NCBI RefSeq assembly: GCF_016925495.1 | Contig: NZ_CP070491.1 | Location: forward strand, 3,918,001-3,982,000 | Direction of reading: 5' to 3' | Source of the DNA: Methylococcus sp. EFPC2 | GTDB lineage: Bacteria > Pseudomonadota > Gammaproteobacteria > Methylococcales > Methylococcaceae | Length of the DNA stretch: 64,000 nt | Part shown: one piece after another, positions 21,420 through 61,372 of the stretch | How positions within the stretch are numbered: the first letter of the stretch is position 1 | How the letters are laid out: every line of letters starts with the position of its first letter | The notes under the pieces: model-generated | The model's input: the letters and a program-made list of their open reading frames with translations, nothing else | What the model was told of the DNA's origin: nothing | The model's database searches: none | Translations under genes and position numbers: made by a program

Positions 21420-21667
21420 GAGGCGGGGCTCAGGGTTGGGAACGATGCCATATTTCAAAGAGACACTGATGGACAGGCCAATGGAGTGGGGGGCGCGCGT
21501 AGTAGATGGATGAAGCGAAAAGTCGTTTTAAAATCAGCTTACTACGTGCGGCTTTATGGTAGCCGGTTCTGCGCGGCCCGTCTCGTCCCTCCATAAGCCG
21601 CGCCAAATTTCCCAGGATCCCGAGCGCGCAAGCGCTCCAAGCGGCGGGCGCTATAGGGAAGGGGTCG

Positions 21668-21711
21668 TGTCATGCAATCGTTACCCCCGCGTTACCCGAC
21701 TGTAACAAAGC
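21668..21711 (+). promoter_or_regulatory. Candidate PhoB box, four 11-bp units, upstream of plcP-like gene
   Basis: Four hexamers repeat with exact 11-bp phase: TGTCAT (21668), CGTTAC (21679), CGTTAC (21690) and TGTAAC (21701). PhoB dimers bind tandem 11-bp units of the form CTGTCATAAAW, and the first and last units match well. The array ends 46 bp before the ATG at 21758 and reads toward it. It lies in the 338-bp gap that also separates the divergent CHASE2 cyclase gene; no other clear element was seen there. Confidence 0.7.
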
Positions 21712-21757: not shown

Positions 21758-22567
21758 ATGACACTCCATCACCGGACCCTCTGGATCTCCGACGTGCATC
21801 TCGGCACGCGCGGCTGTAAGGATGAATATCTGCTCGACTTCCTGCGCCACAACGACTGCGAGCGGCTCTACCTGGTCGGCGACATCGTCGATTTCTGGAA
21901 GCTGAAGAACGGGTTTTACTGGCCCGCCCGGCACAACGAGATCGTACGTGCGGTCCTCGAAAAGGCTGCGCGCGGCACCGAGGTCATCTACATCCCCGGC
22001 AATCACGACGAGATCTTCCGCGGTTATATCGGCACCACCTTCAACGGCGTCGAAATCCGCGAGCGTGCAATCCATCGAACCGCCGACGGGCGCCACCTCC
22101 TCGTATTGCACGGCGACGAATTCGACGGGGTGGTGTGCTCTAGCCGCTGGCTGGCGGTCCTGGGCAGCGAGGCATATGACCTGCTGCTGGTGGTCAATCG
22201 CTGGTTCAACCATGGCCGCCGTCTGCTCGGATTCCCCTATTGGTCCATGTCGGCCTACATCAAACACAAGGTCAAAAACGCCGTCAGCTTCATCTTCGAT
22301 TTCGAAAAGGCGCTCATGCACGCCGCCGAGGAAGAGAAACTGGACGGGGTGGTCTGCGGCCACATCCATCACGCCGCCATGCATACCCTGGACAACGGCA
22401 TCACTTACTGCAACACCGGCGATTGGGTGGAAAGCTGCACGGCGCTCGCCGAGAGCTCCGCCGGCGAGCTGACTGTCATCCGTTGGGTGGAAGAAAGCGC
22501 TCGATTACTGGAGGAACACACGCTTGAAAATTGCCCTGATAACGGACGCCTGGCGCCCACAAGTTAA
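21758..22567 (+). CDS. plcP: PlcP-like metallophosphoesterase (phospholipase C type; LpxH-like superfamily)
   Basis: A 269-aa calcineurin-like phosphoesterase. Metal-ligand motifs are intact: SDVHLGTRGC (D-x-H), LVGDIVDFW (GD), IPGNHDE (GNHD), LHGDEFD, CGHIHH and TGDWVESC. Databases often label this type UDP-2,3-diacylglucosamine diphosphatase. However, the SDVHLGTRG start, the FPYWSMSAYIKHKVKNAVS segment and the GDWVESCTA end are features I associate with rhizobial PlcP, which hydrolyses phosphatidylcholine and other phospholipids to diacylglycerol in phosphate starvation. It overlaps a GT4 gene by 44 bp and has a PhoB-box array upstream, both as expected for plcP. LpxH function is not excluded by sequence alone. 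Confidence 0.75.
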   Translation: MTLHHRTLWISDVHLGTRGCKDEYLLDFLRHNDCERLYLVGDIVDFWKLKNGFYWPARHNEIVRAVLEKAARGTEVIYIPGNHDEIFRGYIGTTFNGVEIRERAIHRTADGRHLLVLHGDEFDGVVCSSRWLAVLGSEAYDLLLVVNRWFNHGRRLLGFPYWSMSAYIKHKVKNAVSFIFDFEKALMHAAEEEKLDGVVCGHIHHAAMHTLDNGITYCNTGDWVESCTALAESSAGELTVIRWVEESARLLEEHTLENCPDNGRLAPTS

Positions 22568-23576
22568 CGGTGTCGTCACCACGCTGACGCGGAACTGCGA
22601 GCAGCTAAAAGCGCGCGGACATATCGTCGAGCTGTTCACGCCAGACCGCTTCCGCAACTGGCCATGCCCCGGTTACCAGGAGATTCGCCTCGCGTTGGGC
22701 TGCGGGCGCAAGCTGCACCGTATGCTCGACGAATTCCAGCCGGATGCCGTCCACATCGCCACCGAGGGGCCTTTGGGGCTTGCGGCGCGCGGCTATTGCC
22801 GCTCGCGCGGCTTTCCCTTTACGACGTCGTTCCATACGCGCTTCGCCGAATACGTCAACGTGCGTAGCGGCATACCGGTGGGCTGGATTTACCGGCTTTT
22901 GCGTTGGTTCCACAACGGTGCCGAGCGCACGATGACCGCGACCCCGGCCTTGATCGAAGAGCTGAAAGGGCGGGGCTTCAAGAACCCGGTCCTGTGGTCG
23001 CGGGGGGTCGATACGGCCTTGTTCAAGCCGCTGGCCAAACCGGACAGGCAGGAGCCGGTTTTTCTTTACGCCGGTCGCGTCGCCATTGAAAAAAATATCG
23101 ACGCTTTCCTGTCCCTGGATCTACCGGGCCGCAAGGTCGTGGTCGGCGATGGCCCGCAGCGGGCGGAACTGGAATCCAAATACCCGGCCGTTCGTTTCGT
23201 CGGTTACCGATTCGGCCAGGAGTTGGCGGAAGAAATCGCGGCGGCCGATGTTTTCGTTTTCCCCAGCAAGACCGACACTTTCGGCCTGGTGATGCTGGAG
23301 GCCCTGGCTTGCGGCGTCCCGGTGGCCGCGCTGCCGGTGCAGGGGCCGGTCGATGTGATACTCAGCGACAAGGTGGGTCGCCTTCACGACGACCTGTGCA
23401 AAGCCGCCCTGGCCGCGCTGGATCTGAGGCCGGAAGATTGCCGCGCCTACGCCATGAACTATTCCTGGGAAAACTGCGCTGGCCAGTTCGAAAGCCATCT
23501 GGCGCCTATCTCCCGAACCGTCATTCGACCCACCGCCTGGTGGCAGCGTCATTCGGGCGGCCGGTCTTCGACCTGA
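22524..23576 (+). CDS. GT4 glycosyltransferase, Agt-like (diacylglycerol glycosyltransferase candidate)
   Basis: A 350-aa GT4 enzyme. Motifs: ITDAWRPQVNGVVTTL at the N-terminus (typical of PimB/Agt/MgtA-type enzymes), SFHTRFAEYV, LYAGRVAIEKNI in the donor domain, and the E-x7-E site TDTFGLVMLEALACGVP near residue 252-268. It starts at TTG 22524, inside the plcP-like gene, with GGAGGA eight nucleotides upstream. In plcP-agt pairs the enzyme adds glucose or glucuronate to the diacylglycerol released by PlcP to form phosphate-free glycolipids. That role is inferred from pairing and the upstream PhoB box; other GT4 acceptors are possible. Confidence 0.78.
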   Translation: MKIALITDAWRPQVNGVVTTLTRNCEQLKARGHIVELFTPDRFRNWPCPGYQEIRLALGCGRKLHRMLDEFQPDAVHIATEGPLGLAARGYCRSRGFPFTTSFHTRFAEYVNVRSGIPVGWIYRLLRWFHNGAERTMTATPALIEELKGRGFKNPVLWSRGVDTALFKPLAKPDRQEPVFLYAGRVAIEKNIDAFLSLDLPGRKVVVGDGPQRAELESKYPAVRFVGYRFGQELAEEIAAADVFVFPSKTDTFGLVMLEALACGVPVAALPVQGPVDVILSDKVGRLHDDLCKAALAALDLRPEDCRAYAMNYSWENCAGQFESHLAPISRTVIRPTAWWQRHSGGRSST

Positions 23577-32518: not shown

Positions 32519-33162
32519 ACGGCGACCGTCGGCGACGTGCGCCGGGCGTCATCCGCCGGCATGGAACCGAGGCGCTGAAGGAACACATGGGTGCGGTGGC
32601 GGTTGTATGGATGCTGCTTTGCAATGTCACGGTGGCAATGCCCGCCGCGCGGGAGTCTGGAGAACTCCATGCGGAAGCGAAGCTGATGGCCGATGCCGGG
32701 GGCGGATTGTGGCCAGCAGGCCCTGCCGTAGGGGGCTGCGAATACGCTTACGAAGTGGGAATGGGCGATCTGCCACGGAATATCCTGAATAGTCCCAATA
32801 TAGAGTTTCTGCACGCCCGGGATACCCCGGCAATGGGTCAGTCGAAAAGCGCCGATGCGCCACCTTTCGAAGCGGTGTCATCGCCGGCATTTTTCCACTA
32901 CGCCGCCGGGTCGCACGAAGCGGCTTCGATGTCCTGTTCGGGTGCTGGCGCTTCTCCTCTGGCGGAACGCTCCGGGGTGTCGGGTGGCCTCGGCACGGCG
33001 CTGTCCCTTGAGGCCCTGTCTTTTGGGTGGCCGGATGCGACGGAAGGGAAAGCAGGACGGTTCGCCGGCACGTCCATTTCGTCTCAGTTGAGCCGGATTT
33101 TTTTCTTCGCGCTGCTGGCGGTTCTGGGGATCGAGTCTCTGCGGATCAAGCGAAATCGCTGA
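32515..33162 (+). CDS. Hypothetical exported protein with C-terminal membrane anchor
   Basis: Up to 215 aa from ATG 32515, which overlaps the activator's stop (ATGA); ATG 32587, preceded by AAGGA, would give a shorter product that begins with a signal-like helix (MGAVAVVWMLLCNVTVAM). The middle is low-complexity, rich in Ala, Gly and Ser. The C-terminus has one hydrophobic helix (IFFFALLAVLGIESL) followed by the basic RIKRNR, an arrangement like a sorting tail but without a recognisable PEP or VPxPA motif. No known domain. Coupling to the activator gene suggests a shared role. The 3' end overlaps the converging gene at 33146 by 17 bp. Confidence 0.55.
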   Translation: MNGDRRRRAPGVIRRHGTEALKEHMGAVAVVWMLLCNVTVAMPAARESGELHAEAKLMADAGGGLWPAGPAVGGCEYAYEVGMGDLPRNILNSPNIEFLHARDTPAMGQSKSADAPPFEAVSSPAFFHYAAGSHEAASMSCSGAGASPLAERSGVSGGLGTALSLEALSFGWPDATEGKAGRFAGTSISSQLSRIFFFALLAVLGIESLRIKRNR

Positions 33163-34897
33163 GCCGACCCGGGTCCAGGTTCGGTTCGAGCGGCGCCGTC
33201 TCCTCCGCAACAATCTCGCTCAGGTGCTTCTGCCGCCGGGCCAGATCGGCCTCCACGGCTTCTATCCAGCGGCGGTGCGAAAGCCCTGTCGGATCGAGGG
33301 GGCGCCCGCCCGCCACCCGGCGATGCTGCAGTGCCTGGTCGTAAGGAGGCACGGACTCTGCGCCGAAATAGTCCGGTTTTTTGCCGTGCTGAGCTCGACC
33401 GCCCGCACTGATGCTGTCGGGCGGGCGCGCTTCGTAGAGGCGGTGCGCTCTGATGGGTTCCGTCTGCTGGATCAAGCGCGCCAGTTCGAGCACGAACCAG
33501 TACGCGGGCTCGTGTGACGACTTGCCTTTCGCTCCGGTCCGATCTGCGGTCCGCGCCGCGGTGGCTGGGAATTTGCGCTGGACCGTGGGGTGGCTCCAGG
33601 CGCTGCAGGGGCCGGACAGCGTTACCCGGCTGAGCGCATGGTGATCGTCGGAGACGACCAGGCTGGCATAGGGGTTACTCCAGAGTTTGGCCGTGTGCGC
33701 ATGGACCATGTTGCCGGGATGGTATGGGACGAGTACGAACACGGTTTTGCCGCGTCGTTCGACGAAAGCGATTTTGCCCCGATCGCCGTTGCGCGGTGAG
33801 GTTCCCGGCAGGCCGGTGGCGGACACCGTTACCTGGAAGGATTCGAACTGATCCGCCAATAGCTGTTCCAGCGGCATCATCGGATTCCATGCGTCAGAAG
33901 GGGAGGGCCTTTCGTCGGACGTCCCTCCCGGACGCTTGACGAACAGATTTTGCGAGCATTGCGTGTAGGTTTCTTCCGTGCCGCCTACGAAAAACCGCAG
34001 CAAGCTTCCCGTGTCCCGCGCGGCATTGCGGTGTGCCTGTAATACCGAAGGCGGCAGGCCGTATTCTCGCTCGATTTGACTCGCTTCCAGCGGGACGACG
34101 CCGAACAGGGTGATATGCAAGCCCATGGCGTCCGGGTCCATGGGGTGGAGTGCGAGCAGGGCCAGCCTGTCGTTGTGCAACGCGGCTTCCACCGTTTCGA
34201 TCAGGGCACCGGCGGCGCCCCGACGGCGGGCGTCGACTGCCGGATAGCGGCAGGACACCGGCTCACCTTCGCTCAGGCCGCGGTAATAGTCCGGCATTGC
34301 CCCTTTTCTATTCAGCCAGCGTTGTACCGCGGTCAACTCGCCGGCCCGCTTGGGGTAGGGCAGGAAGAGCGGAACGACGACCGTCGCGGCATCGATGACT
34401 GCGATGGGCTTGGCACTGCCGGTCTGCTCCACCACCGCGGCAAAGGTGCGTCGGTGACGCTGTCGTCCATGTCCTTGCGCTTCCCCACCGCTACCGATGA
34501 TGACCTGGGTGGCCGTCATGGCGTATGCGCCCATGGCGGTGTTCAGATATTGCCGGTATTGCCTGCGGTAAAAATGATCGGCGCCGATGGCGTCGGCGGC
34601 TTCCTGGCGTTTCCGGTTTCCCGGTTTGGTCGAGCCGATCAGGTATTGGTAGACATGCTCGGCCGCAGGGCCGGGGGCATCTTTGCGGCGGAAGTAGCGC
34701 TCGGCGATGGCTTCCCGTCGGTGCGGAGCGAAAACCGAGAGCCAGCGGTAGATGCGGGTTTTCCACCTTCGCACAAGGTAGCGGTCGTCCCCGGCGGGCG
34801 TCGCCGGGCTATGAGGCGCGGGCCTTGCCGGTTCGGTGCCGGTTACTGCAGAGGAGTCATCCAGACTCGGCTTCAAGCTAGAGTCGACGCGTTTCAT
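33146..34897 (-). CDS. 583-aa protein of unknown function; C-terminal half may be a PNPOx-like split barrel
   Basis: It starts at ATG 34897 with TAGGAG eight nucleotides upstream, so the gene is well supported, but I do not recognise the whole protein. The N-terminus is disordered and Pro-rich, then Arg/Tyr-rich helices (RRWKTRIYRWLSVFAPHRREAIAERYF). No signal peptide or TM helix is clear. Around residues 375-440 the pattern GKIAFVERRGKTVFVLVPYHPGN in parts, then YASLVVSDDHHALSRVTLSG, resembles the strand order of pyridoxamine-phosphate-oxidase-like flavin/heme-binding domains (HugZ type); this is weak. It is convergent with the 32515 gene and divergent from the PAP2 operon. Confidence 0.6.
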   Translation of the reverse strand: MKRVDSSLKPSLDDSSAVTGTEPARPAPHSPATPAGDDRYLVRRWKTRIYRWLSVFAPHRREAIAERYFRRKDAPGPAAEHVYQYLIGSTKPGNRKRQEAADAIGADHFYRRQYRQYLNTAMGAYAMTATQVIIGSGGEAQGHGRQRHRRTFAAVVEQTGSAKPIAVIDAATVVVPLFLPYPKRAGELTAVQRWLNRKGAMPDYYRGLSEGEPVSCRYPAVDARRRGAAGALIETVEAALHNDRLALLALHPMDPDAMGLHITLFGVVPLEASQIEREYGLPPSVLQAHRNAARDTGSLLRFFVGGTEETYTQCSQNLFVKRPGGTSDERPSPSDAWNPMMPLEQLLADQFESFQVTVSATGLPGTSPRNGDRGKIAFVERRGKTVFVLVPYHPGNMVHAHTAKLWSNPYASLVVSDDHHALSRVTLSGPCSAWSHPTVQRKFPATAARTADRTGAKGKSSHEPAYWFVLELARLIQQTEPIRAHRLYEARPPDSISAGGRAQHGKKPDYFGAESVPPYDQALQHRRVAGGRPLDPTGLSHRRWIEAVEADLARRQKHLSEIVAEETAPLEPNLDPGRLSDFA

Positions 34898-35142: not shown

Positions 35143-35187
35143 CTGTCATCGCTTCGTCATGTAACTTTCATCGCTTCGTCATCCGCC
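35143..35187 (+). promoter_or_regulatory. Candidate PhoB box, four 11-bp units, upstream of PAP2-GT28-dgkA
   Basis: TGTCAT (35144), CGTCAT (35155), TTTCAT (35166) and CGTCAT (35177) repeat with exact 11-bp phase on the plus strand, matching the tandem CTGTCATNNNN design of PhoB sites, enough for two PhoB dimers. The array ends 44 bp before the PAP2 ATG at 35231. It lies in the 333-bp gap to the divergent 583-aa gene; nothing else notable was seen there. Confidence 0.75.
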
Positions 35188-35230
35188 GCAACTACCGTAG
35201 GCATCGTAACGCTTGCGGTGGAGGTGTGCC

Positions 35231-35755
35231 ATGAAATTGATGCAGACGATACACGGCTACGATGTGACCCTGTTCAGCTGGGTCATGCGGCGCAAGACGC
35301 AGAAACTCCAGGTTCGCTGCGCGCGCTGGGTGTCACGGTCGGGCGATGGCTATTTGTATTTGACGCTGGCACTGCTGCTCGCGTGGGCCGGGCGGCCCGA
35401 CGACTATGCCTTGTTGGCTTGCCTCGTGTTGGGTTTTGCTTTGGAGCGCCCGCTTTATTTCGTCATCAAGAACGGATTCAAGCGGGACCGGCCACCGGCG
35501 GCGCTGAACATCAAGAGCTTTGTCACGCCTTCCGACCGATTCAGCTTTCCCTCCGGGCATACCTCGGCGGCTTTTCTGGTTGCCACCCTGCTGGGTTATT
35601 TCCATCCTGTTTTGCTGCCGCCGCTACTCGTATGGGCGGGGCTGATCGGCATGGCCCGCGTGGTCTTGGGCGTGCATTTTCCCACCGATACCCTGATCGG
35701 CGCCTTGATGGGGGCGGCCGTGGCGATGTTGAGCCTGGAGATATTGATCGCGTGA
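35231..35755 (+). CDS. PAP2 family phosphatase (phosphatidate/lipid phosphatase)
   Basis: A 174-aa integral membrane phosphatase from ATG 35231, preceded by GGAGG. All three PAP2 catalytic motifs are present: KNGFKRDRP (motif 1, K-x6-RP), FPSGHTSAAF (motif 2, PSGH) and ARVVLGVHFPTD (motif 3, R-x5-H-x3-D). Five to six hydrophobic helices surround them. Such enzymes dephosphorylate phosphatidic acid, phosphatidylglycerophosphate or undecaprenyl pyrophosphate at the outer face of the inner membrane. The stop overlaps the start of the glycosyltransferase gene (GTGA), and a four-unit PhoB-type box lies upstream. In this setting release of phosphate and diacylglycerol from lipid is the likeliest job; BacA-type undecaprenyl recycling is the alternative. 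Confidence 0.88.
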   Translation: MKLMQTIHGYDVTLFSWVMRRKTQKLQVRCARWVSRSGDGYLYLTLALLLAWAGRPDDYALLACLVLGFALERPLYFVIKNGFKRDRPPAALNIKSFVTPSDRFSFPSGHTSAAFLVATLLGYFHPVLLPPLLVWAGLIGMARVVLGVHFPTDTLIGALMGAAVAMLSLEILIA

Positions 35756-36792
35756 GAGTCTTTTTCGGGGTGCAGGCGACCGGCAACGGTCACATCACCC
35801 GCGCCCGGGCGCTGGCGCCCAAGTTCAAGGCGGCGGGCGCGGAGATTACCTGGATGTTCACGGGACGCCCCTGGGAACATCTGTTCGAGATGGAGGCGTT
35901 CGGCGATTTCGAGTGGCGGGCGGGTTTGACTTTCGCCACACGGGCGGGACGCATTCAATATCTGAAAACCGCACGCAACAACCGCCTCGGTACTTTCGTA
36001 CGCGATGTCCGCGCCTTGGACTTGGGCGGTTACGACGTGGTGGTCAGCGATTTCGAGCCCGTCACCGCTTGGGCCGCCCGCCTGCAAGGCATCCCCTGCG
36101 TGGGCATCGGCCACCAGTACGCGTTCGATTACGACATCCCCAAGGCCGGGGCCGATTTCTTCGGCGAGCAGGTGCTGCGCTGGTTCGCGCCGGTATCGGT
36201 GGGCTTGGGGCTGCACTGGCACCATTTTCATCGTGCCATCCTGCCGCCGCTGATCGAGTCGCCGGCCGCGACCCCCGTGCAGCGGGACAAGATCGTCGTG
36301 TATCTGCCTTTCGAAGACGTGAACCAGGTCATACACCTGTTGAAGCGTTACCGCCATTACCGCTTCTATGTCTACAGCCCGCACCTGCCGCACGCGCGGC
36401 ACGAAAAAGCGGACCATATCCATGTGCGGCAGTTATCCAGGGCGGGATTCTTCCAGGATTTCGCCGAGGCCGCGGGTGTCATCTGCAATGCGGGTTTCGA
36501 GCTTCCCAGCGAGGCCTTGCTCGCAGGTAAGAAACTGCTGGTCAAGCCGCTCAGGGGACAGATGGAGCAGCTTTCCAATGCGCTGGCCCTAGACGTGTTG
36601 CAACTCGGCCAGGTGATGCAGTCGCTGGACGCGGCCACGATCACGACCTGGCTGGAGCAGAGCCAGGCCATCCGGGTGGACTACCCCGACGTGGCGCAGG
36701 CTGTGGTAGATTGGCTGAGTGCCGGTGATCTGCGCATCGACCAGTCCTGGATCGACGAGGTTTGGTCCCGGGCGACGCGTCACACCGTTTAA
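35752..36792 (+). CDS. GT28/MJ1255-type glycosyltransferase
   Basis: A 346-aa GT-B enzyme starting at GTG 35752 within the PAP2 stop. The N-terminal glycine loop FGVQATGNGHITRARALAPKF is typical of MurG/UGT-like and MJ1255-family transferases. The C-terminal half carries KIVVYLPFEDVNQVI and the donor-site loop GVICNAGFELPSEALLAGKKLLVKPL. This superfamily (GT28) includes the diacylglycerol sugar transferases UgtP and plant MGD1, so a diacylglycerol acceptor is reasonable here between a PAP2 phosphatase and diacylglycerol kinase. A cell-wall or other polyprenyl acceptor cannot be excluded. The frame is open upstream to 35218, but that part shadows the PAP2 gene. Confidence 0.8.
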   Translation: MRVFFGVQATGNGHITRARALAPKFKAAGAEITWMFTGRPWEHLFEMEAFGDFEWRAGLTFATRAGRIQYLKTARNNRLGTFVRDVRALDLGGYDVVVSDFEPVTAWAARLQGIPCVGIGHQYAFDYDIPKAGADFFGEQVLRWFAPVSVGLGLHWHHFHRAILPPLIESPAATPVQRDKIVVYLPFEDVNQVIHLLKRYRHYRFYVYSPHLPHARHEKADHIHVRQLSRAGFFQDFAEAAGVICNAGFELPSEALLAGKKLLVKPLRGQMEQLSNALALDVLQLGQVMQSLDAATITTWLEQSQAIRVDYPDVAQAVVDWLSAGDLRIDQSWIDEVWSRATRHTV

Positions 36793-36812
36793 CCCCTTTA
36801 TCGACGGAATTT

Positions 36813-37184
36813 ATGGCAGGTCAGAATTTGACGGGCTGGGCCCGCATCAACGCAGCGTTTTTCAACTCCATCAAGGGCTTTCGCGCCACTTGGGAAAACG
36901 AGGAAGCGTTCCGGCAGGAGGTCTATCTGTTGATCGTCGCAGCGCCTTTGGCCTTATGGCTGGGGGGCAGCGGCATCGAGAAGGCGCTGCTGCTGGGCAG
37001 CGTGCTGCTGGTCCTGATCGTCGAGTTGCTCAATACCGGCATCGAGGTGGTGGTCGACCGCATCAGCTTCGATCGCCACGAACTGTCCGGCCGGGCCAAG
37101 GATATCGGTTCGGCGGCGGTATTGACCTCGCTGGTGCTGGCGGCCATCGTATGGGTGAGCGTGCTGGGGTCGCGTTTCCTTTGA
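36813..37184 (+). CDS. dgkA: Diacylglycerol kinase DgkA
   Basis: A 123-aa membrane kinase from ATG 36813, close to the E. coli DgkA length. It has the amphipathic N-terminal helix (INAAFFNSIKGFRATWENEEAFRQE), three TM helices and the family signature ELLNTGIEVVVDRIS with the catalytic Glu/Asn. It phosphorylates diacylglycerol to phosphatidic acid with ATP. It lies 20 bp after the glycosyltransferase gene, so the operon contains both directions of the phosphatidate-diacylglycerol interconversion (PAP2 and DgkA) plus a glycosyltransferase. Confidence 0.93.
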   Translation: MAGQNLTGWARINAAFFNSIKGFRATWENEEAFRQEVYLLIVAAPLALWLGGSGIEKALLLGSVLLVLIVELLNTGIEVVVDRISFDRHELSGRAKDIGSAAVLTSLVLAAIVWVSVLGSRFL

Positions 37185-37272: not shown

Positions 37273-37821
37273 ATGCCGCGCATCGCCATCCTGCTCTGTT
37301 CCGCATTTTTTCTGGTCAGCCGATCCTGGGCCGGCGAAGAAGCGGGTAACCGGTTGCGGGAGAAAGTCGTCATGGGCTGGCTGGAATCCGTTTACCTCAA
37401 ACCCTGGAACACGCGTCTGACCGCCAAGCTCGACACGGGAGCGCAGACTTCGTCGCTGCATTCGGACCGGATCGAACGTTTCAGCCGGGAGGGCGAGCCT
37501 TGGGTGCGTTTTACCGTGAGGGATCTGGACGACGATCACGAAAAACCCATCGTCATCGAGCGCCCCTTGGTCCGTACCGCCTACATCAAGAGTCACCAGC
37601 GCGAAGTGTCCAAGCGCGACGTCGTGACCCTGACCGTTTGCAAGAACGGCAGGGACTACACGTCCGAGTTCAATCTGGTCGATCGCAGCAAATTCAATTA
37701 TCCCGTGTTGCTGGGGCGCAGCTTCCTCAAAGACGTGGCGCTGGTCGATGCCTCGTCGACCTTTCTGTTCCGCGGCGAAGACGACCCCTGCGTGAATCGG
37801 GCCGGGGCGGCCAAGCCTTGA
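37273..37821 (+). CDS. Exported retropepsin-like aspartic protease (PF05618-type, 'ATP-dependent zinc protease')
   Basis: A 182-aa protein with a signal peptide (IAILLCSAFFLVSRSWA) and a retropepsin-like core: KLDTGAQTSSLHS supplies the catalytic DTGA near residue 55, and FNYPVLLGRSFLKD is the conserved end of the fold. Databases label the family 'putative ATP-dependent zinc protease', but the DTG motif shows an aspartic peptidase fold. It is followed after 37 bp by a transglutaminase-like 7TM protein and then an ATP-grasp ligase, a conserved three-gene neighbourhood thought to make and trim a peptide or amide product, linked in some bacteria with osmotic stress. Periplasmic location is predicted. 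Confidence 0.85.
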   Translation: MPRIAILLCSAFFLVSRSWAGEEAGNRLREKVVMGWLESVYLKPWNTRLTAKLDTGAQTSSLHSDRIERFSREGEPWVRFTVRDLDDDHEKPIVIERPLVRTAYIKSHQREVSKRDVVTLTVCKNGRDYTSEFNLVDRSKFNYPVLLGRSFLKDVALVDASSTFLFRGEDDPCVNRAGAAKP

Positions 37822-37858
37822 TCGCCAAGTATCGCCGCAGACAGCGCGGGGCATCGGC

Positions 37859-39388
37859 TTGAAAAATCTGCATCTGAAGATACTCGCCCTGCTGCTGGTA
37901 TTGATCGGCGTGGGCTTGTGTTATTACAAGGTGACACGCCTCGGTTTGCCCCTGCTGCCGACCGAACAGGCGGATGTATGGACCTTGGAGGCGAGGATCG
38001 AATTCAAGGCGCGCAAGGACGTACCGGTCAAAGTCCAGTTCTTCATCCCCAGACAACCCGCCGGCTACACGGTGGTGGACGAGAACTTCGTATCCAGCAG
38101 CTACGGCCTGACCACCGAGGACGACGGCGTAAGGCGCTCGGCGCAGTGGGCCGCGCGATCCGCCAACGGCTACCAGGTGCTTTATTACCGCCTGCATCTC
38201 GCCAAGGATCCGTCGACCCCGCCTCCGCCGGCCGAGGCCTATCCGATCAAGCTGGAAACGCCGGATTATCCCGAATTGCTGCGTCCGGCGGTCACTGCCG
38301 TGATCGAGGAGGCGCGCAGCAAGTCCGCCGACCCGCTCTCGTTCGGGCGCGAGATCCTGCTGCGCTTGAATTCCGGGGTCGCCGACGCCAATGTCAGCCT
38401 GTTGCGGCAAGACATACAATCGCCTTCCGAGTGGGCCAAACGGCAGATTTACGTCCTGGCTGGCGCGAACATCCCGGCCCGCCTGCTCCACGTCCTGCAG
38501 TTGCGCGACGGGGTGAAACACGGCGAGCTCACGCCCTGGCTGGAGATCCATGACGGCCATGCCTGGCAGGCGGTGAATCCGCAGACCGCCGAGCTGGGCC
38601 TGCCCCATGACGCGGTGGTTTGGCACGTGGGCACCGGGCCGGTGCTGAGCGTATCGGGGGGGCGGTTCGGCAACGCCGAGTATTCGGTCACCCGGCACGC
38701 CCAGGAGATGACCTCGGTCGCCGAACAGCGCGCGCGCCAGATGGGCTCCCGGCTGATGGAGTTTTCTCTGTTCGGCCTGCCGGTGCAGACGCAGAATGTC
38801 TATCGCGTGCTGTTGCTGGTGCCTCTCGGCGCTTTCCTGATCGTGCTGCTGCGCAACGTGGTCGGATTCAAGAGTTTCGGCACCTTCATGCCCATACTGA
38901 TCGCACTGGCCTTCCGCGAGACCAAGATCTGGTGGGGGCTGGCCTTATTCAGTCTGGTGGTGGCGCTGGGCTTGATGATCCGCTTCTACCTGGAATACCT
39001 CAAGCTGCTGCTGGTGCCGCGTCTGGCGGCGGTGTTGATCATCGTCATCATGCTGATGGCTACGGTCAGCCTGCTGAGCCACAAGCTGGGCGTGGACCGC
39101 GGCGTGTCGGTGGCCTTGTTCCCTATGGTCATCCTCGCCATGACGGTCGAGCGCATGTCGCTGGTGTGGGAAGAGTCGGGGCCCTGGGAGGCCTTGCAGC
39201 AAGGGGTGGGTAGTCTGCTGGTCGCGTCCCTGGGTTACCTGGTGATGAGCAGCAGCCTGCTCGGCCACCTGGTTTTCGTATTTCCCGAACTGCTGCTGGT
39301 GGTGCTGGCCGCGACCCTGTTGCTGGGGCGCTATACCGGCTACCGGCTGACCGAACTGTGGCGCTTCCGCTCGGCGCTGAGGGAATAG
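37859..39388 (+). CDS. Inactive transglutaminase-like domain fused to multi-TM (7TM) region
   Basis: A 509-aa inner-membrane protein. One N-terminal helix (LHLKILALLLVLIGVGLCYY) leads to a periplasmic region of about 290 residues with a transglutaminase-like fold (AGANIPARLLHVLQL, LEIHDGHAWQAVNP). The catalytic Cys of active transglutaminases is not evident; the position is occupied by the AGANIPAR segment, in line with the family name. About seven TM helices follow from residue 310. It starts at the TTG/ATG-like codon at 37859 close after the protease gene and ends 4 bp before the ATP-grasp gene. Family knowledge: these always travel with a retropepsin and an ATP-grasp enzyme. Confidence 0.85.
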   Translation: MKNLHLKILALLLVLIGVGLCYYKVTRLGLPLLPTEQADVWTLEARIEFKARKDVPVKVQFFIPRQPAGYTVVDENFVSSSYGLTTEDDGVRRSAQWAARSANGYQVLYYRLHLAKDPSTPPPPAEAYPIKLETPDYPELLRPAVTAVIEEARSKSADPLSFGREILLRLNSGVADANVSLLRQDIQSPSEWAKRQIYVLAGANIPARLLHVLQLRDGVKHGELTPWLEIHDGHAWQAVNPQTAELGLPHDAVVWHVGTGPVLSVSGGRFGNAEYSVTRHAQEMTSVAEQRARQMGSRLMEFSLFGLPVQTQNVYRVLLLVPLGAFLIVLLRNVVGFKSFGTFMPILIALAFRETKIWWGLALFSLVVALGLMIRFYLEYLKLLLVPRLAAVLIIVIMLMATVSLLSHKLGVDRGVSVALFPMVILAMTVERMSLVWEESGPWEALQQGVGSLLVASLGYLVMSSSLLGHLVFVFPELLLVVLAATLLLGRYTGYRLTELWRFRSALRE

Positions 39389-39392
39389 CCGC

Positions 39393-40340
39393 GTGTCCTG
39401 GGTCGACCGGCTGATGCCGTGGCGCAAGCTGCGCGAGCAAGGCATCATGGGCATGAATGAACGCAACGCGGGTTTTACCTTGCGCTACAACCCGCGCAGT
39501 TATTATCCCCTGGTGGACGACAAGCGCATCACCAAGCAACTGGCCCTGGACGCCGGCATCGCGGTGCCCGCGTTGTACGCGGTGATCGAGATCGAGCATC
39601 AGCTCGAAAACCTGAGGCGGATCCTCGCGGACTACGAGGATTTCGTGGTCAAGCCCGCCCACGGCAGCGGTGGGGAAGGCATACTGGTGGTCACCGGGCG
39701 CAGCAACGGGCGGTACCGGCTCAGCAGCGGCCTGGCGCTGACGGAAGACGAGCTGGCCCACCACATCTCCAATATCCTGAGCGGCCTATACAGCCTGGGC
39801 GGTCTGCCGGACTGCGCGCTGATCGAATACCGGGTCGATTTCGATCCCCTGTTCGACGACGTCAGTTTTCAGGGCGTGCCGGACATCCGCACGGTGGTGT
39901 TCCGGGGAGTGCCGGTGATGGCCATGATACGCCTGCCGACCCGCGTGTCCGACGGCAAGGCGAATTTGCACCAGGGTGCGGTGGGCGTCGGCATAGACCT
40001 GGCTACCGGCGTCACGTTTTCGGGGGTTTGGCGGGAAATGCCGGTGGACCATCATCCGGATACCGGAGGGACCATCGCCGGCATCAGGATTCCCCACTGG
40101 GAGGACATTTTGGCGCTCACGGCGCTCTGTGACGATCTGACCGGGCTGGGTTATATCGGCGTCGACATCGTGCTGGACAGGACGCTGGGCCCGTTGATGC
40201 TGGAAATGAACGCCCGACCGGGCTTGAGCATACAGATCGCTAACCGGCGGGGCCTGCTGCCCCGCCTGCGTTATCTGGAGGGGCTGAATGCCATACCGGA
40301 ATCGATCGCGGATCGGGTGGCCCTGGCTCGGTCCCTGTGA
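39393..40340 (+). CDS. ATP-grasp alpha-L-glutamate ligase-like protein (RimK-like)
   Basis: A 315-aa ATP-grasp enzyme. The ATP-binding loop is VVKPAHGSGGEGILVV (about residues 86-101) and the metal-binding end is GPLMLEMNARPGLSIQIANRRG. The N-terminal NERNAGFTLRYNPRSYYPLVDDK is characteristic of the subfamily that partners the inactive-transglutaminase membrane protein. It should form an amide or peptide bond in the cytoplasm with ATP hydrolysis; the substrate is not known. It is the last gene of the three-gene cassette begun at 37273 and is followed by the pstS promoter region. Confidence 0.88.
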   Translation: MSWVDRLMPWRKLREQGIMGMNERNAGFTLRYNPRSYYPLVDDKRITKQLALDAGIAVPALYAVIEIEHQLENLRRILADYEDFVVKPAHGSGGEGILVVTGRSNGRYRLSSGLALTEDELAHHISNILSGLYSLGGLPDCALIEYRVDFDPLFDDVSFQGVPDIRTVVFRGVPVMAMIRLPTRVSDGKANLHQGAVGVGIDLATGVTFSGVWREMPVDHHPDTGGTIAGIRIPHWEDILALTALCDDLTGLGYIGVDIVLDRTLGPLMLEMNARPGLSIQIANRRGLLPRLRYLEGLNAIPESIADRVALARSL

Positions 40341-40509: not shown

Positions 40510-41571
40510 ATGAGTAGCAAGTTTTTGGCGCTGGGCGCGGCCCTTTCCGTAGCGGTATTCGGATTCGCGGGGGCGGCACACGCCGAGGGCGGTCGCGACA
40601 CCATCAGCATCGTCGGCTCGTCGACGGTTTATCCCTTCGCTACCGTGGTGGCCGAGCAGTTCGGCAAGACCGGCAAGGTTAAGACCCCCAAGGTCGAATC
40701 CACCGGCACGGGCGGCGGCATCAAGCTATTCTGCAGCGGCGTGGGCGTCGAATTTCCGGATATCGCCAATGCGTCCCGCCGCATCAAGAAATCCGAGTTT
40801 GAGGCCTGCCAGAAATCGGGCGTGAAAGACATCGTCGAGGTCAAGATCGGTTTCGATGGCATCGTGCTGGCACAGGCGAAGAAGGCGAAGCGCATCGCGT
40901 TGACCCGCAAGGAGATTTACCTCGCCCTGGCCAAACGCGTCCCGGATCCAAAGTGCAAGGATTGCGACACCCTGGTTGCCAATCCCTACAAGACCTGGAA
41001 TCAGATCAACCCCGCCCTGCCCAACAGCAAGATCGAGGTGCTGGGCCCGCCGCCGACTTCCGGCACCCGCGATGCTTTCGCCGAACTGGCCTTGGAGGGC
41101 GGTTGCCAGGCGTTTCCCGGGATCAAGGCCAGGAAGGACAAGGACGAGGCGGAATACAAGAATATCTGCCAGACCGTGCGCGAGGACGGCGCTTATATCG
41201 AAGCCGGCGAAAACGACAACCTGATCGTCCAGAAGCTGGGCGCCAATCCCAATGCCTTGGGCATCTTCGGTTTCAGCTTCCTCGATCAGAACGCCGACAA
41301 GGTCGCCGCGGCGACGGTCGACGGCGTCGAGCCCAGCTACGACACCATCTCCGGCGGCGAATATTCGATCTCCCGTCCGCTGTACTTCTACGTGAAGAAG
41401 GCTCACGTCGGCAAGATTTTCGGGATCGAGGGTTTTATCGCCGAGTTCGTGAGCGACAAGGCGACCGGTCCGGAAGGCTATCTGACCGACAAGGGCTTGA
41501 TCCCCTTGCCCGATAAGGAACGCAAAGCCGTGGTCGAAGACGCCAAGAAGCTGAAGAACCTTGCTTTGTAA
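40510..41571 (+). CDS. pstS: Phosphate ABC transporter substrate-binding protein PstS
   Basis: A 353-aa periplasmic protein with signal peptide (FLALGAALSVAVFGFAGAAHA). Phosphate-binding elements are SIVGSSTVYPF (Ser/Thr loop after residue 35), STGTGGGIKLFC and PPPTSGTRDAF. The family is the longer PstS type with inserted cysteine pairs (CKDCDT). It delivers phosphate to the PstCA channel. A terminator-like hairpin lies between pstS and pstC, expected to keep the binding protein in excess over the membrane subunits. A PhoB-type box is upstream. Confidence 0.94.
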   Translation: MSSKFLALGAALSVAVFGFAGAAHAEGGRDTISIVGSSTVYPFATVVAEQFGKTGKVKTPKVESTGTGGGIKLFCSGVGVEFPDIANASRRIKKSEFEACQKSGVKDIVEVKIGFDGIVLAQAKKAKRIALTRKEIYLALAKRVPDPKCKDCDTLVANPYKTWNQINPALPNSKIEVLGPPPTSGTRDAFAELALEGGCQAFPGIKARKDKDEAEYKNICQTVREDGAYIEAGENDNLIVQKLGANPNALGIFGFSFLDQNADKVAAATVDGVEPSYDTISGGEYSISRPLYFYVKKAHVGKIFGIEGFIAEFVSDKATGPEGYLTDKGLIPLPDKERKAVVEDAKKLKNLAL

Positions 41572-41596
41572 CAATCAGGTGACCACGAGTTGCCGC

Positions 41597-44328: not shown

Positions 44329-45213
44329 GTGACCATCGCCATAGCCCCCAATTCAAGCATTAACGAGAACTTCAGGATGAGAAATCCGGACAAAACCTCT
44401 TCCACCGCGTCGTTCGATCGTGAGCACGGCAGGACGGTGGGCGATATTCACGCCCAGAATCCGCGCATCCAGTGCCGCAATGTCAATGTGTTCTACGGTG
44501 AGAAGCAGGGTATTCAGGACATCAGTCTGGAAATCGGCCGTAACGAAGTCATCGCCCTGATCGGGCCCTCGGGATGCGGCAAATCGACCTTCCTGCGCTG
44601 CATGAACCGGATGAACGACACCATCGTGGGTTGCCGGGTGAGCGGGGAAATCCTGGTGGACGGCAACGATATCTACGACGAGGATATGGATGTGGTGCCG
44701 CTGCGCGCGCAGGTCGGCATGGTGTTCCAGAAGCCGAATCCCTTTCCCAAGTCCATCTTCGAAAACGTCGCCTACGGACCCCGGATACACGGCCTGGCCA
44801 ATTCCAAGGTGGAGCTGGAAGAGATCGTCGAGACGTCCCTGCGCCGGGCCGGCTTGTGGGACGAGGTGAAGGACAATCTGCATCATCCCGGCACCGGTCT
44901 TTCCGGCGGCCAGCAGCAGCGCTTGTGCATCGCGCGAACCATCGCGGTCAGCCCGGAAGTCATCCTGATGGACGAACCCTGCTCGGCCCTGGATCCGATC
45001 GCCACCGCGCGCATCGAGCAATTGATCGACGAGTTGCGCGACGATTACACCATCGCTATCGTCACGCACTCCATGCAGCAGGCCGCGCGAGTTTCGCAAC
45101 GCACAGCCTATTTCCACATGGGCAAGCTGATCGAGGTGGGCGACACCGCGCAGATATTCACCAACCCGCGCCATCAGCTCACCGAAGACTACATCACCGG
45201 GCGTTTCGGCTAG
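44329..45213 (+). CDS. pstB: Phosphate ABC transporter ATP-binding protein PstB
   Basis: A 294-aa ATPase starting at GTG 44329 (GAGG upstream); the N-terminal 45 residues are a poorly conserved extension. Walker [10 protein letters not shown] (about 85), Q-loop [10 protein letters not shown], signature LSGGQQQR and Walker [14 protein letters not shown] are all intact, and the [15 protein letters not shown] stretch is PstB-specific. It energises phosphate import. The gene ends the pst operon; no phoU follows, as the next gene, gltA, converges from the other strand 33 bp away. Confidence 0.95.
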
Positions 45214-51234: not shown

Positions 51235-51933
51235 ATGGCTGCAATCCCGGTACTGGTGGTCGAGGACGAAGACGCGATACGCGAAATGCTGATCATGGCT
51301 CTGGAACAGGCGGACTTTTCCGTTCGCTCCGCTGCGGATACCCAGCAGGCGACCGATTTGTTGAACGACTTCGTGCCCGATTTGATACTGCTGGACTGGA
51401 TGCTGCCGGGCATGAGCGGAGTCGAGTGGGCCAAGCGGCTGAAGAAGGACAAGGATCACGGCGATATTCCGGTCATCCTGCTGACGGCCCGCGGCGAGGA
51501 AGAGGACAAGGTGCGCGGACTCGAAGTCGGTGCCGACGACTATGTCACGAAGCCCTTTTCGCCGCGCGAACTCGTGGCTCGCATCCGCGCCGTGCTGCGG
51601 CGCGCGGGCCGTTTCGGCCAGACCGGCAAGCTGCAATTGGGGCCCATCGTCCTGGATGCCGACGAGCATCGCCTGAGTATCGACGATCAGCCTGTCATGC
51701 TCAGTCCGACCGAACACCGCCTCCTGGAGTTCTTCCTCACCCATCCGGGCAAGGTCTACAGCCGCACCCAGTTACTCGACCAGGTGTGGGGGCGCAGCGC
51801 CTATATCGAGGAACGCACGGTGGACGTGCATATCCGCCGTCTGCGCAAGATTCTGGGGGAGTATAGTTGCGAAGATCTCATACAAACCGTGCGCGGCTTC
51901 GGTTATCGCTTCTCCCTTCAAGACCGGGTTTAG
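51235..51933 (+). CDS. phoB: Phosphate regulon response regulator PhoB
   Basis: A 232-aa OmpR-family regulator. The receiver domain has the acidic pair VVEDED, phosphoacceptor Asp54 in LILLDWMLPG and the Lys of YVTKPFSPREL. The winged-helix domain ends with VDVHIRRLRKIL and VRGFGYRFS. Identity as PhoB rests on the receiver sequence (RGEEEDKVRGLEVGADDYVTKPF in part is PhoB-like) and on phoR following at once. Phosphorylated PhoB binds the 11-bp repeated boxes found elsewhere in this window. Confidence 0.94.
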   Translation: MAAIPVLVVEDEDAIREMLIMALEQADFSVRSAADTQQATDLLNDFVPDLILLDWMLPGMSGVEWAKRLKKDKDHGDIPVILLTARGEEEDKVRGLEVGADDYVTKPFSPRELVARIRAVLRRAGRFGQTGKLQLGPIVLDADEHRLSIDDQPVMLSPTEHRLLEFFLTHPGKVYSRTQLLDQVWGRSAYIEERTVDVHIRRLRKILGEYSCEDLIQTVRGFGYRFSLQDRV

Positions 51934-53226
51934 ATGCTTAGCCCCTGGCGCTCGGAACTCTACTGGATAAGCTGGCTGGGGCTCGTCGCCGCCTTTTTCG
52001 GCAAGCTGACCGGTCAATATTTCCTTGCGTTCTGGCTGGCCAGTCTGATCTATCTCGCCCGTCATCTCTTCCATATCAATGGCTTGCTGGTCTGGTTGCG
52101 CCTGGGAGGCAAGGTGCCTTCGGGCGGCGGCATCTGGGAGGAGATCTACTACCTCATCTATCGGTTGCGCCGCCGCAACAAGCGCCGCAAGAAGCGCTTG
52201 ATCGTCATGCTGGAGCGTTTCCGCACCGCCACCGCCGCCTTGCCCGACGCCACCGTGGTGCTGGGGCCGCGCGATGAAATCGAGTGGTTCAACGAAGCGG
52301 CCGGGGAGTTGCTCGGTTTGCAGCGTTATGACATCGGCCAGCAGATCGCCAATCTGCTACGCGCGCCCAAGTTCGCCGAATTTCTGCGCGCCTGCGATTA
52401 CGACAACACCGTCAGCGTTCCTGCTCCCGGCACGGACAACCGGCAGCTGGAAATCCGCGTGGTGCCTTACGGCGACGACCTGCGCCTCCTGGTGGCCCAG
52501 GACATCACCCAGTTGCGTCTGATGGAGCGTGTTCGCAGCGATTTCGTCGCCAACGTTTCCCACGAGCTGCGCACTCCGCTCACGGTGCTCAAGGGTTACA
52601 TGGAAACCCTGACGGACGAAGCCCAGGTGTCGGAACGCCATCTCAAGATATTCCGCCGCATGGAAGAACAGACCGAGCGCATGCAAAACCTGGTCGACGG
52701 CCTGCTTTCCCTGACCCGCCTCGAATCGGGTGCGCAGTCCTCGCCCCAGGAAGTCAACGTCGCCGCCTTGCTACGCAGTTTGACCGAGGAAGTGTCGCTG
52801 CTACAAGGGCCGCAGCCGAATTTGGAACTCCTCATCGAAACCGACGCTCGCCTATCGGGTTCCGAAACGGAGTTGCGCAGCGCATTTTCCAATCTCGTCG
52901 TCAACGCGCTGAAATACACGCCGGCTGCCGGACATGTGCAGGTGATCTGGCATGACGACGGTGAAGGCGCGCGCCTGGACGTGAGGGATGATGGACCCGG
53001 CATAGCGGCCGAGCATGTCTCGCGGATCACTGAGCGTTTCTATCGCGTGGAAAGCGCCGATGTTCCCCGGCGCAACGGTGCCGGTTTGGGTCTGTCCATC
53101 GTCAAACACGTGTTGAGCCGGCACGATGCCAGGCTGGAAATCGTCAGCAAGCCGGGCGAAGGCAGTTGTTTCAGTGCGATTTTTCCCGCGCGCCGGGTAT
53201 CGCGGTCGGCAAAAATCACGGCATGA
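51934..53226 (+). CDS. phoR: Phosphate regulon sensor histidine kinase PhoR
   Basis: A 430-aa kinase that starts directly after the phoB stop. The N-terminus has two TM helices with a minimal periplasmic part (ISWLGLVAAFFGKLTG, FLAFWLASLIYLARHL), then the basic RLRRRNKRRKKR linker, a PAS domain (about 90-190), the dimerisation/phosphoacceptor H-box VSHELRTPLTVLKGY (His210) and an HATPase domain with N-box NLVVNALKYTP and G1/G2 boxes. The lack of a large sensor domain is usual for PhoR, which senses through the Pst transporter and PhoU. Confidence 0.95.
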   Translation: MLSPWRSELYWISWLGLVAAFFGKLTGQYFLAFWLASLIYLARHLFHINGLLVWLRLGGKVPSGGGIWEEIYYLIYRLRRRNKRRKKRLIVMLERFRTATAALPDATVVLGPRDEIEWFNEAAGELLGLQRYDIGQQIANLLRAPKFAEFLRACDYDNTVSVPAPGTDNRQLEIRVVPYGDDLRLLVAQDITQLRLMERVRSDFVANVSHELRTPLTVLKGYMETLTDEAQVSERHLKIFRRMEEQTERMQNLVDGLLSLTRLESGAQSSPQEVNVAALLRSLTEEVSLLQGPQPNLELLIETDARLSGSETELRSAFSNLVVNALKYTPAAGHVQVIWHDDGEGARLDVRDDGPGIAAEHVSRITERFYRVESADVPRRNGAGLGLSIVKHVLSRHDARLEIVSKPGEGSCFSAIFPARRVSRSAKITA

Positions 53227-61076: not shown

Positions 61077-61316
61077 CCGCCACGCTGGACTTGAGTCCGC
61101 TCCCCCTTATCGGGCGCCGAGGTGTGGCCCCTCGACACCGACGTGGAAATTACAGACACCGTGCCCGGGTGTTCCGGGATGTGGCCGTAGGGAAGACCGA
61201 TAGCGTCGGTCGACCATAGCGGTTGCGTTGAATGGATTATCAACGATGGGCGGCACCCTAGTTCCACGAACAAGTGGCAAACTCCAAGCTCTACTGTGTT
61301 TCAATATATTCCTTTT

Positions 61317-61372
61317 GTTCATAAGCATGTAAGTATCATGTCATTTACGGAATAAAGCCGAGTTTGTATAGT
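61317..61372 (+). promoter_or_regulatory. Candidate PhoB box and -10 upstream of the porin gene
   Basis: GTTCAT (61317), TGTAAG (61328) and TGTCAT (61339) follow each other at 11-bp steps, and TATAGT (61367-61372) is a good -10. The porin ATG is 130 nt further on. The rest of the 426-bp gap after the efflux operon holds nothing recognisable. Confidence 0.55.

Follow-up and report, generated by a model that had tools for sequence, protein, structure and literature searches.

Membrane remodelling by PlcP and Agt, described for SAR11, Pseudomonas aeruginosa and Methylosinus trichosporium OB3b, is the closest known counterpart of the locus considered here, which lies in a stretch of 64,000 nucleotides (the window; contig NZ_CP070491.1, positions 3,918,001 to 3,982,000) from the genome of Methylococcus sp. 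EFPC2. Behind an array of PhoB-box-like repeats, an operon in this window encodes a PAP2-family lipid phosphatase (PAP2), a GT-B glycosyltransferase of the MJ1255/VC2487 family (hereafter GT) and the diacylglycerol (DAG) kinase DgkA (Table 1), and we see a little better than an even chance that it forms a PhoB-induced glycolipid branch of membrane remodelling under phosphate starvation. The likeness to PlcP-Agt lies in the probable phosphate control and in a DAG-producing enzyme encoded beside a glycosyltransferase, whereas the differences are that GT belongs to TIGR00661/PF13528 and not to GT4, that a PAP2 phosphatase and a DAG kinase are added, and that TIGR00661 glycosyltransferases also occur in genomes in which no PlcP was found (7/50). 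A second analogy comes from plastids, in which a phosphatidate phosphatase provides DAG that monoglycosyldiacylglycerol (MGDG) synthase turns into galactolipid. The proposed course from phosphatidate over DAG to a glycolipid would be the same, but the glycosyltransferase family is unrelated, control would be exerted by PhoB and a DAG kinase is attached.

As far as the excerpts of the papers cited here go, P. aeruginosa makes MGDG with Agt1 and glucuronic acid diacylglycerol (GADG) with Agt2, and a further glycolipid is ascribed to another glycosyltransferase (PMC8528852), a precedent for two glycosyltransferases within one phosphate response. In methanotrophs, plcP was reported for all proteobacterial representatives examined, agt being its neighbour in type II strains and mostly also in type Ib strains, the plcP-agt pair being reported for the genus Methylococcus; type Ia strains are without agt there, and several of them carry "another putative DAG glycosyltransferase" near plcP that was likened to the Bacillus subtilis enzyme (Scanlan et al., 2022; PMC9239053). 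A search of the main text of that article for the terms "phosphatase" and "diacylglycerol kinase" gave no occurrence. Sebastian et al. distinguished six plcP neighbourhoods, some of them with other putative glycosyltransferases (PMC4796936). For the MJ1255/VC2487 family (TIGR00661), no assigned function was found in the open-licence literature, in which VC2487 is listed, within the excerpt concerned, only as a gene with an upstream ChiS binding peak (PMC11856585); the same literature yielded no description of a PAP2-GT-DgkA trio or of a lipid enzyme from TIGR00661/PF13528.

The operon and its Pho-box-like array

The array consists of the units CTGTCAT (35143-35149), TCGTCAT (35154-35160), CTTTCAT (35165-35171) and TCGTCAT (35176-35182) at an exact period of 11 nt. 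Compared with (CTGTCAT N4) x4, the 7-mer consensus that we take to describe the PhoB box, it scores 23/28, the highest four-unit score on both strands of the window, the next-best independent site (20/28) being located at 14196, and no copy of the window among 200 generated by a first-order Markov model scored as high as 23. The array starts 88 nt and ends 48 nt upstream of the PAP2 ATG and thus shows the 7-mers at an 11-nt period upstream of a gene by which members of the Pho regulon are recognised. Downstream, the PAP2 stop codon overlaps the GTG start of GT through GTGA, and DgkA starts after a gap of 20 nt. An earlier note on this DNA had described a phased four-unit Pho array ahead of a PAP2-GT-DgkA operon with stop/start overlap, and the coordinates as well as the family matches bear this out. 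It had also called the transferase GT28-like, a label that stands for the fold, which is that of MurG and GT1 enzymes, and fails for the MGDG-synthase domain PF06925, as set out below. Induction of the operon by phosphate starvation via PhoB is what this layout would predict.

Table 1. Positions of the array, the operon genes and the PlcP-Agt pair in the window
Feature	Position	Strand	Evidence
PhoB-box array, four 7-mers, 11-nt period	35143-35182	+	sequence scan
PAP2-family membrane lipid phosphatase	35231-35755	+	PF01569, 79.7 bits
GT-B glycosyltransferase, MJ1255/VC2487 family, predicted lipid (DAG) glycosyltransferase	35752-36792	+	TIGR00661, PF13528
DgkA diacylglycerol kinase	36813-37184	+	PF01219, 116.7 bits (cut-off 22.3), model positions 2-102 of 102
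Weaker Pho-box-like array ahead of plcP-agt	21667-21706	+	17/28, one of several such sites; weak alone
PlcP-type metallophosphoesterase (predicted phospholipase C)	21758-22567	+	PF00149/PF12850; name by arrangement
Agt-type GT4 glycosyltransferase (predicted DAG glycosyltransferase)	22524-23576	+	PF13439/PF00534; name by arrangement

PAP2 is the sole match to PF01569 in the 4.56-Mb genome. It contains the motifs K-x6-RP, PSGH and R-x5-H-x3-D, which make up what we take to be the three-part catalytic signature of the family, and the residues concerned (K80, R87-P88, PSGH 107-110, R143, H149 and D153) are invariant in 17 aligned sequences. The nearest solved structure to its model (pLDDT 89.6) is LpxE of A. 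aeolicus (TM 0.79/0.84, 31% identity), followed by a phosphatidylglycerol phosphate (PGP) phosphatase of B. subtilis (TM 0.75/0.66). Neither of the corresponding equivalog models recognises the protein, as it scores 12.4 bits on the LpxE lipid A 1-phosphatase model NF007159 (cut-off 177) and 33.3 bits on the PgpB model NF007975 (cut-off 261). Phosphatidate is the presumed substrate of PAP2, a point that its sequence cannot show.

GT scores 238.7 bits on TIGR00661, above the curated cut-off of 195.9, and 108.5 bits on PF13528, and a search of the genome with TIGR00661 found it as the single match. At E<=0.1 it does not match PF06925, the domain of MGDG synthases, while a comparison protein (L200:7312-8487; L and G numbers denote loci and genomes of our sets) matches that domain at 9e-27, so that membership of the MGDG synthase/UgtP family (GT28) was rejected; nor is it an Agt-type GT4 enzyme, matching PF13528/TIGR00661 only. 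Its model (pLDDT 90.8, pTM 0.89) has the GT-B fold, with YojK (Z 23.2, root-mean-square deviation 3.4 over 310 residues) as the structural neighbour of highest Z and P. aeruginosa MurG (Z 22.2, 3.1 over 286) among those with a Z lower by about 1. These structure lists (Foldseek/VIA) show the fold only, and a family missing from them is not thereby excluded; the single GT sequence compared with the sequences of solved structures gave nothing at E<=10. The GT-B fold suggests a nucleotide-sugar donor and is silent on the acceptor; DAG as acceptor and the sugar donor are therefore predictions that go beyond what the sequence can demonstrate.

The full-length DgkA match is complemented by a match of 113 bits to the solved chain 2kdc, presumably E. 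coli DgkA, which covers residues 4-122 of 123. It is the sole match in the genome, within a search aimed at the DgkA-type family PF01219.

Conservation of the PAP2-GT pair and of the array

The pair formed by PAP2 and GT was followed through three sets of loci, which overlap (L126 lies in a genome also met as G017, and the locus of the window is among the phylum loci), so that their counts are not additive. Among 61 relatives' genomes including that of the window, 43 carry GT, and in the best 30 loci of these 43, one of them the window's own, PAP2 lies directly upstream of GT in 27 of the 29 others, its alignment ending 9 nt or less from the GT start in all 27. The same order is found in 69/80 loci of a named set, the best 80 of at least 567 confirmed relatives. 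In a phylum sample of 398 genomes, 32 of which have GT, PAP2 adjoins GT in 29 of the 30 loci read (own included); all 32 genomes belong to the class of Methylococcus sp. EFPC2, the classes of the genomes without GT being mostly unlisted, so that absence elsewhere is not established. Within the class, GT is patchy, with a TIGR00661 match at E<=1e-30 in 12 of 369 sampled genomes, 7 of them above the cut-off, and near-universal in the own family (34/37). PAP2 matches are split in G014 (L007/L211) and the GT match is divided over two frames in G111 (L050), which may reflect sequencing error or decay.

The array recurs together with the pair. In the named set, a stretch of 250 nt ahead of the lead gene was compared with 200 dinucleotide-preserving shuffles (L170 was skipped, having too little upstream sequence), and the array reaches p<=0.05 in 56 and p<=0.005 in 34 of 68 PAP2-led loci, and p<=0.05 in 5/11 GT-led loci. 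A score of at least 18 is seen in 46/79 named loci compared with 8/255 control upstreams, taken from other long open reading frames (ORFs) of the same loci. In the phylum sample, 26/30 loci (own included) reach p<=0.05, the array starts 78-98 nt before the lead gene in 24/30, and the coding strand scores better in 29/30 by a strict count, which was used as awarding ties to the coding strand gives 171/255 among the controls. PAP2-GT with a Pho-box-like array also occurs without PlcP at E<=1e-30 in Vibrio sp. HDW18 (L195, 19/28) and Pseudoalteromonas denitrificans (L186, 18/28).

DgkA follows GT, within about 170 nt, in 16/29 relatives' loci. Judged from these loci, the widely conserved unit is PAP2-GT, and the full trio including DgkA is a local arrangement. 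In Nitrosomonas-type loci, of which the named set holds six (L131, L132, L137, L145, L162 and L165; five titled Nitrosomonas and one "uncultured beta proteobacterium isolate AOB"), a same-strand kinase of the DAGK_cat family PF00781, unrelated to DgkA, holds the place of DgkA directly after GT in 6/6. Three of these loci have the order PAP2-GT-kinase (L137, L162, L165), L162 with PlcP upstream as well, and three the order PlcP-patatin-GT-kinase without PAP2 (L131, L132, L145). Since PF00781 takes in lipid kinases of several kinds, and the three kinases tested all stay below the cut-offs of the NCBIfam kinase models, DAG is only the putative substrate of these enzymes. Furthermore, one relative without a TIGR00661 GT has PlcP, a GT4 enzyme and DgkA in a row (G012), and in L248 DgkA is divergent from PAP2-GT. 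Because of the Nitrosomonas-type loci and these two cases, a DAG-supplying enzyme, a glycosyltransferase and a lipid kinase appear to recur together in varied versions; on this comparison of gene orders, DgkA is not universal beside PAP2-GT, but its place is meaningful.

Four of the six Nitrosomonas-type loci (L131, L132, L145, L162) have a gene for a patatin-like phospholipase (PF01734) after PlcP and before GT or PAP2-GT, and an extra phospholipid-degrading step in these clusters is possible.

Where the earlier note had presented PAP2-GT-DgkA as a unit and suggested a survey of genomes for the trio with upstream PhoB boxes, the trio is thus present in the window and PAP2-GT with the array is widespread, while DgkA is often absent and the trio does not hold as a general unit. 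The Pho control that the note had assumed is supported by the recurrence of the array in position, phase and strand among relatives.

Linkage to PlcP and alternation with Agt

The window also contains a PlcP-Agt pair, as the earlier note had said, in the form of overlapping metallophosphoesterase and GT4 genes that are named by domains and arrangement; their activities in Methylococcus sp. EFPC2 are predicted ones. M. capsulatus Texas (G017, the genome of L126) has orthologues of both with 66% identity each, which overlap likewise. In the counts below, PlcP stands for homologues of the window metallophosphoesterase at 21758.

In the window itself, PlcP-Agt and PAP2-GT-DgkA are 11.6 kb apart. 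In three relatives, the five genes PlcP-Agt-PAP2-GT-DgkA are contiguous (L209 in G003, L210 in G026, L219 in G021), and in G005 (L206, one contig) PlcP, PAP2, GT and DgkA stand together without an Agt at E<=1e-40. Because of this contiguity and the linkage in G005, the PAP2-GT core would belong to the PlcP locus. Agt adjoins GT-DgkA in L122 and PAP2-GT-DgkA in L123, and PlcP is followed directly by GT in L207 (G008) and L048 (G414). Among the 38 relatives with both GT and PlcP, the two share a contig in 22, a count biased to close pairs in fragmented assemblies, and in 15 of these they are 15 kb or less apart from start to start (7 kb or less in 14). PlcP lies within the read flanks (7 kb or less) in 15/80 named loci.

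Apart from linkage, the two genes co-occur. PlcP is present in 43 of 50 GT-carrying genomes, hand-picked from the 80 named ones, and in 10/12 GT genomes of the class sample, compared with 93/357 GT-less genomes of that sample; the Fisher p-values (2.5e-16 and 8e-5, respectively) treat genomes as independent and are uncorrected for kinship or choice of genomes. The idea of a second module separate from PlcP-Agt is not upheld, as the five genes are contiguous in three relatives. The phosphate-starvation glycolipid role proposed with it loses this separateness and gains a tie to remodelling from PlcP linkage, co-occurrence and the complementarity with Agt described next.

In the own family, Agt and GT are both present in 31/37 genomes. 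Outside it, Agt at E<1e-55, a threshold set post hoc at a gap in the match list with 33/91 genomes with weaker matches dropped, is found in 0/8 class-sample genomes with PlcP and GT compared with 53/93 with PlcP and no GT (p 0.002). One of the dropped genomes, G095, has PlcP and GT, and its GT4 match is weaker (1e-43). At order level, where 24 genomes were compared, GT is present in 9 and Agt (E<=1e-40) in 5, never both in one genome. Outside the own family, it thus looks as if GT replaced Agt as the partner of PlcP.

A third type of glycosyltransferase is found in G011 and G049, in which an enzyme of the MGDG-synthase type (PF06925) is encoded close downstream of PlcP. The type Ia gene described as another putative DAG glycosyltransferase is possibly better fitted by this PF06925 gene than by the TIGR00661 GT, to judge from the excerpted account, although some cases may be the TIGR00661 GT. 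In G049 (L200:5199-8490) and G011 (L202:2387-6778), PlcP, an MFS transporter and the PF06925 glycosyltransferase lie on one strand, with a mechanically called ORF on the opposite strand between the last two in L202. The read stretches of the 80 named loci contain no homologue of this MGDG_synth gene at E<=1e-5.

Several other features of the window surround the operon. Phosphate-transport genes lie downstream of the trio. The gene at 40510 encodes a PstS-like binding protein (PF12849), which with 156.5 bits stays under the TIGR02136 cut-off of 206.6; a permease resembling PstC is encoded at 41590 and an ATPase of the ABC type at 44329, and the window further holds a phoB-type gene at 51235 and a phoR-type gene at 51934. 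A set of RloA-like, RloB-like and ATP-grasp (TIGR02291) genes at 37273-40340 separates the trio from the pst genes; that these RloA-C genes are part of the module is unsupported, since within flanks of about 1.5 kb RloA appears in only two of 31 loci, both from the own genome (L001, L002). Divergent from the trio, an ORF of 583 aa on the minus strand (33146-34897) has no Pfam match at E<=0.001. A three-unit Pho-box-like site at 61316-61344 is weak (14/21, a score common to several other sites of the window) and lies about 160 nt upstream of 61503, where a gene for a phosphate-selective porin (Porin_O_P) is located.

A proposed glycolipid branch of the phosphate response and its alternatives

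In the scheme that we favour, low phosphate would lead PhoB to the array and switch on PAP2, GT and DgkA. PAP2 would convert phosphatidate, and perhaps related lipid phosphates, into DAG while recovering phosphate, and PlcP would provide further DAG from existing phospholipid with release of the phospho-headgroups. GT would then transfer the sugar of a nucleotide-sugar to DAG to form a glycolipid, a reaction for which other bacteria use Agt and which here would presumably run alongside Agt, and DgkA would return surplus DAG to phosphatidate, preventing its build-up and allowing phospholipid to be rebuilt. The pairing of PAP2 and PlcP with GT and Agt is left free in this scheme, either or both supplying DAG. 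What the computation shows of this account is the genes themselves, the array as well as its recurrence, the operon, the linkage and co-occurrence with PlcP, the complementarity with Agt and the replacement of the kinase.

A number of observations weigh against it. The fold of GT is compatible with any acceptor of GT-B enzymes, and the structural models allow that the substrate of PAP2 could be lipid A, PGP or undecaprenyl pyrophosphate (C55-PP). No NCBIfam model is over its cut-off for PlcP or Agt, the best for PlcP being LpxH with 45 bits (cut-off 134). GT and PlcP are more than 500 kb apart in 7 of the 22 relatives' genomes with both on one contig, and no PlcP was found at E<=1e-30 in the 7/50 GT genomes mentioned above. 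The array misses p<=0.05 in 12/68 PAP2-led and 6/11 GT-led named loci, is absent ahead of the lead gene in the own-family genus g11 (L018, L021, L023, L027), and of the control upstreams, for which 50 shuffles were used, 14/255 have p<=0.02. As to Agt, its absence is common and other partners of PlcP exist, since 40 of the 93 GT-less genomes with PlcP have no Agt either, and the class-sample search scored no more than the best five candidates of each genome, whereas the relatives' search left out one at most. DgkA is absent beside PAP2-GT in 13/29 relatives' loci, and in the named set of 80 most loci do not have it in their read flanks; being the single PF01219 match of the genome, it must also do housekeeping work, and together with PAP2 it could form an ATP-burning cycle. 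Finally, the lipidome of low-phosphate V. cholerae, the species of VC2487, is about 90% ornithine lipid in the excerpted report, the identification being limited to phospholipid and ornithine-lipid libraries (PMC13157583).

Among the competing explanations, the best survivor, which we nevertheless hold to be unlikely, is a role in the envelope, in which PAP2 would dephosphorylate lipid A, PGP or C55-PP in the manner of LpxE or PgpB, GT would glycosylate a lipid A precursor or a polyprenyl phosphate and so spare surface phosphate, and DgkA would clear the DAG of envelope reactions. Such substrates may be considered for PAP2 because its nearest solved relative is A. aeolicus LpxE, MurG is among the nearest solved relatives of GT, and the textbook function of DgkA is the recycling of DAG that arises in envelope reactions. 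Set against this are the PlcP linkage and co-occurrence and the Agt complementarity, which favour DAG, as well as the low score of PAP2 on the LpxE equivalog. A BacA-family gene, the one match in the genome and apart from the trio, also speaks against it and weakens PAP2 as a candidate for the cell's only C55-PP phosphatase.

A shade less probable still is sequential glycosylation, by which Agt would make monoglycosyl-DAG and GT add a further sugar to give a diglycosyl lipid. The coexistence of Agt and GT in most own-family genomes and the contiguity of their genes in L209, L210 and L219 would suit this order of events, but as GT occurs without Agt outside the family (in the class sample as well as at order level) and inside it in G005, it can hardly need the product of Agt there. 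That the operon unites an ordinary lipid phosphatase with a glycosyltransferase for exopolysaccharide or secondary glycans, Pho-regulated for unrelated reasons and with DgkA as a chance neighbour, we regard as improbable, for while DgkA is not beside PAP2-GT in 13 of the 29 relatives' loci and the fold does not fix the acceptor, PAP2-GT adjacency in nearly every phylum-sample locus, kinase replacement in every Nitrosomonas-type locus and PlcP in 43 of the 50 GT genomes argue against it.

Beyond the glycolipid branch in this organism, a bolder proposal is advanced only tentatively, as we think it rather more probably wrong than right: PAP2 and the MJ1255-family GT would constitute a complete, partly PlcP-independent PhoB glycolipid route that is widespread in the Gammaproteobacteria (in the sense of GTDB, with Nitrosomonas), takes over from Agt as the partner of PlcP in many lineages, is on its own in strains without a PlcP match, as in Vibrio sp. 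HDW18 and Pseudoalteromonas denitrificans, and has drawn in lipid kinases from two families that are not related, which would give the MJ1255/VC2487 family its first function, that of lipid glycosyltransferases.

If true, this would provide a function for a glycosyltransferase family that so far takes its name from two uncharacterised genes and a candidate partner of PlcP where Agt is missing, in methanotrophs, ammonia oxidisers and marine Gammaproteobacteria, and it would add to the bacteria capable of phosphate-sparing glycolipid synthesis some that are overlooked when genomes are surveyed for plcP/agt. For the methanotroph itself, the operon probably provides a means to exchange phosphate-containing membrane lipids for sugar lipids, with PAP2-GT apparently under like control in many bacteria.

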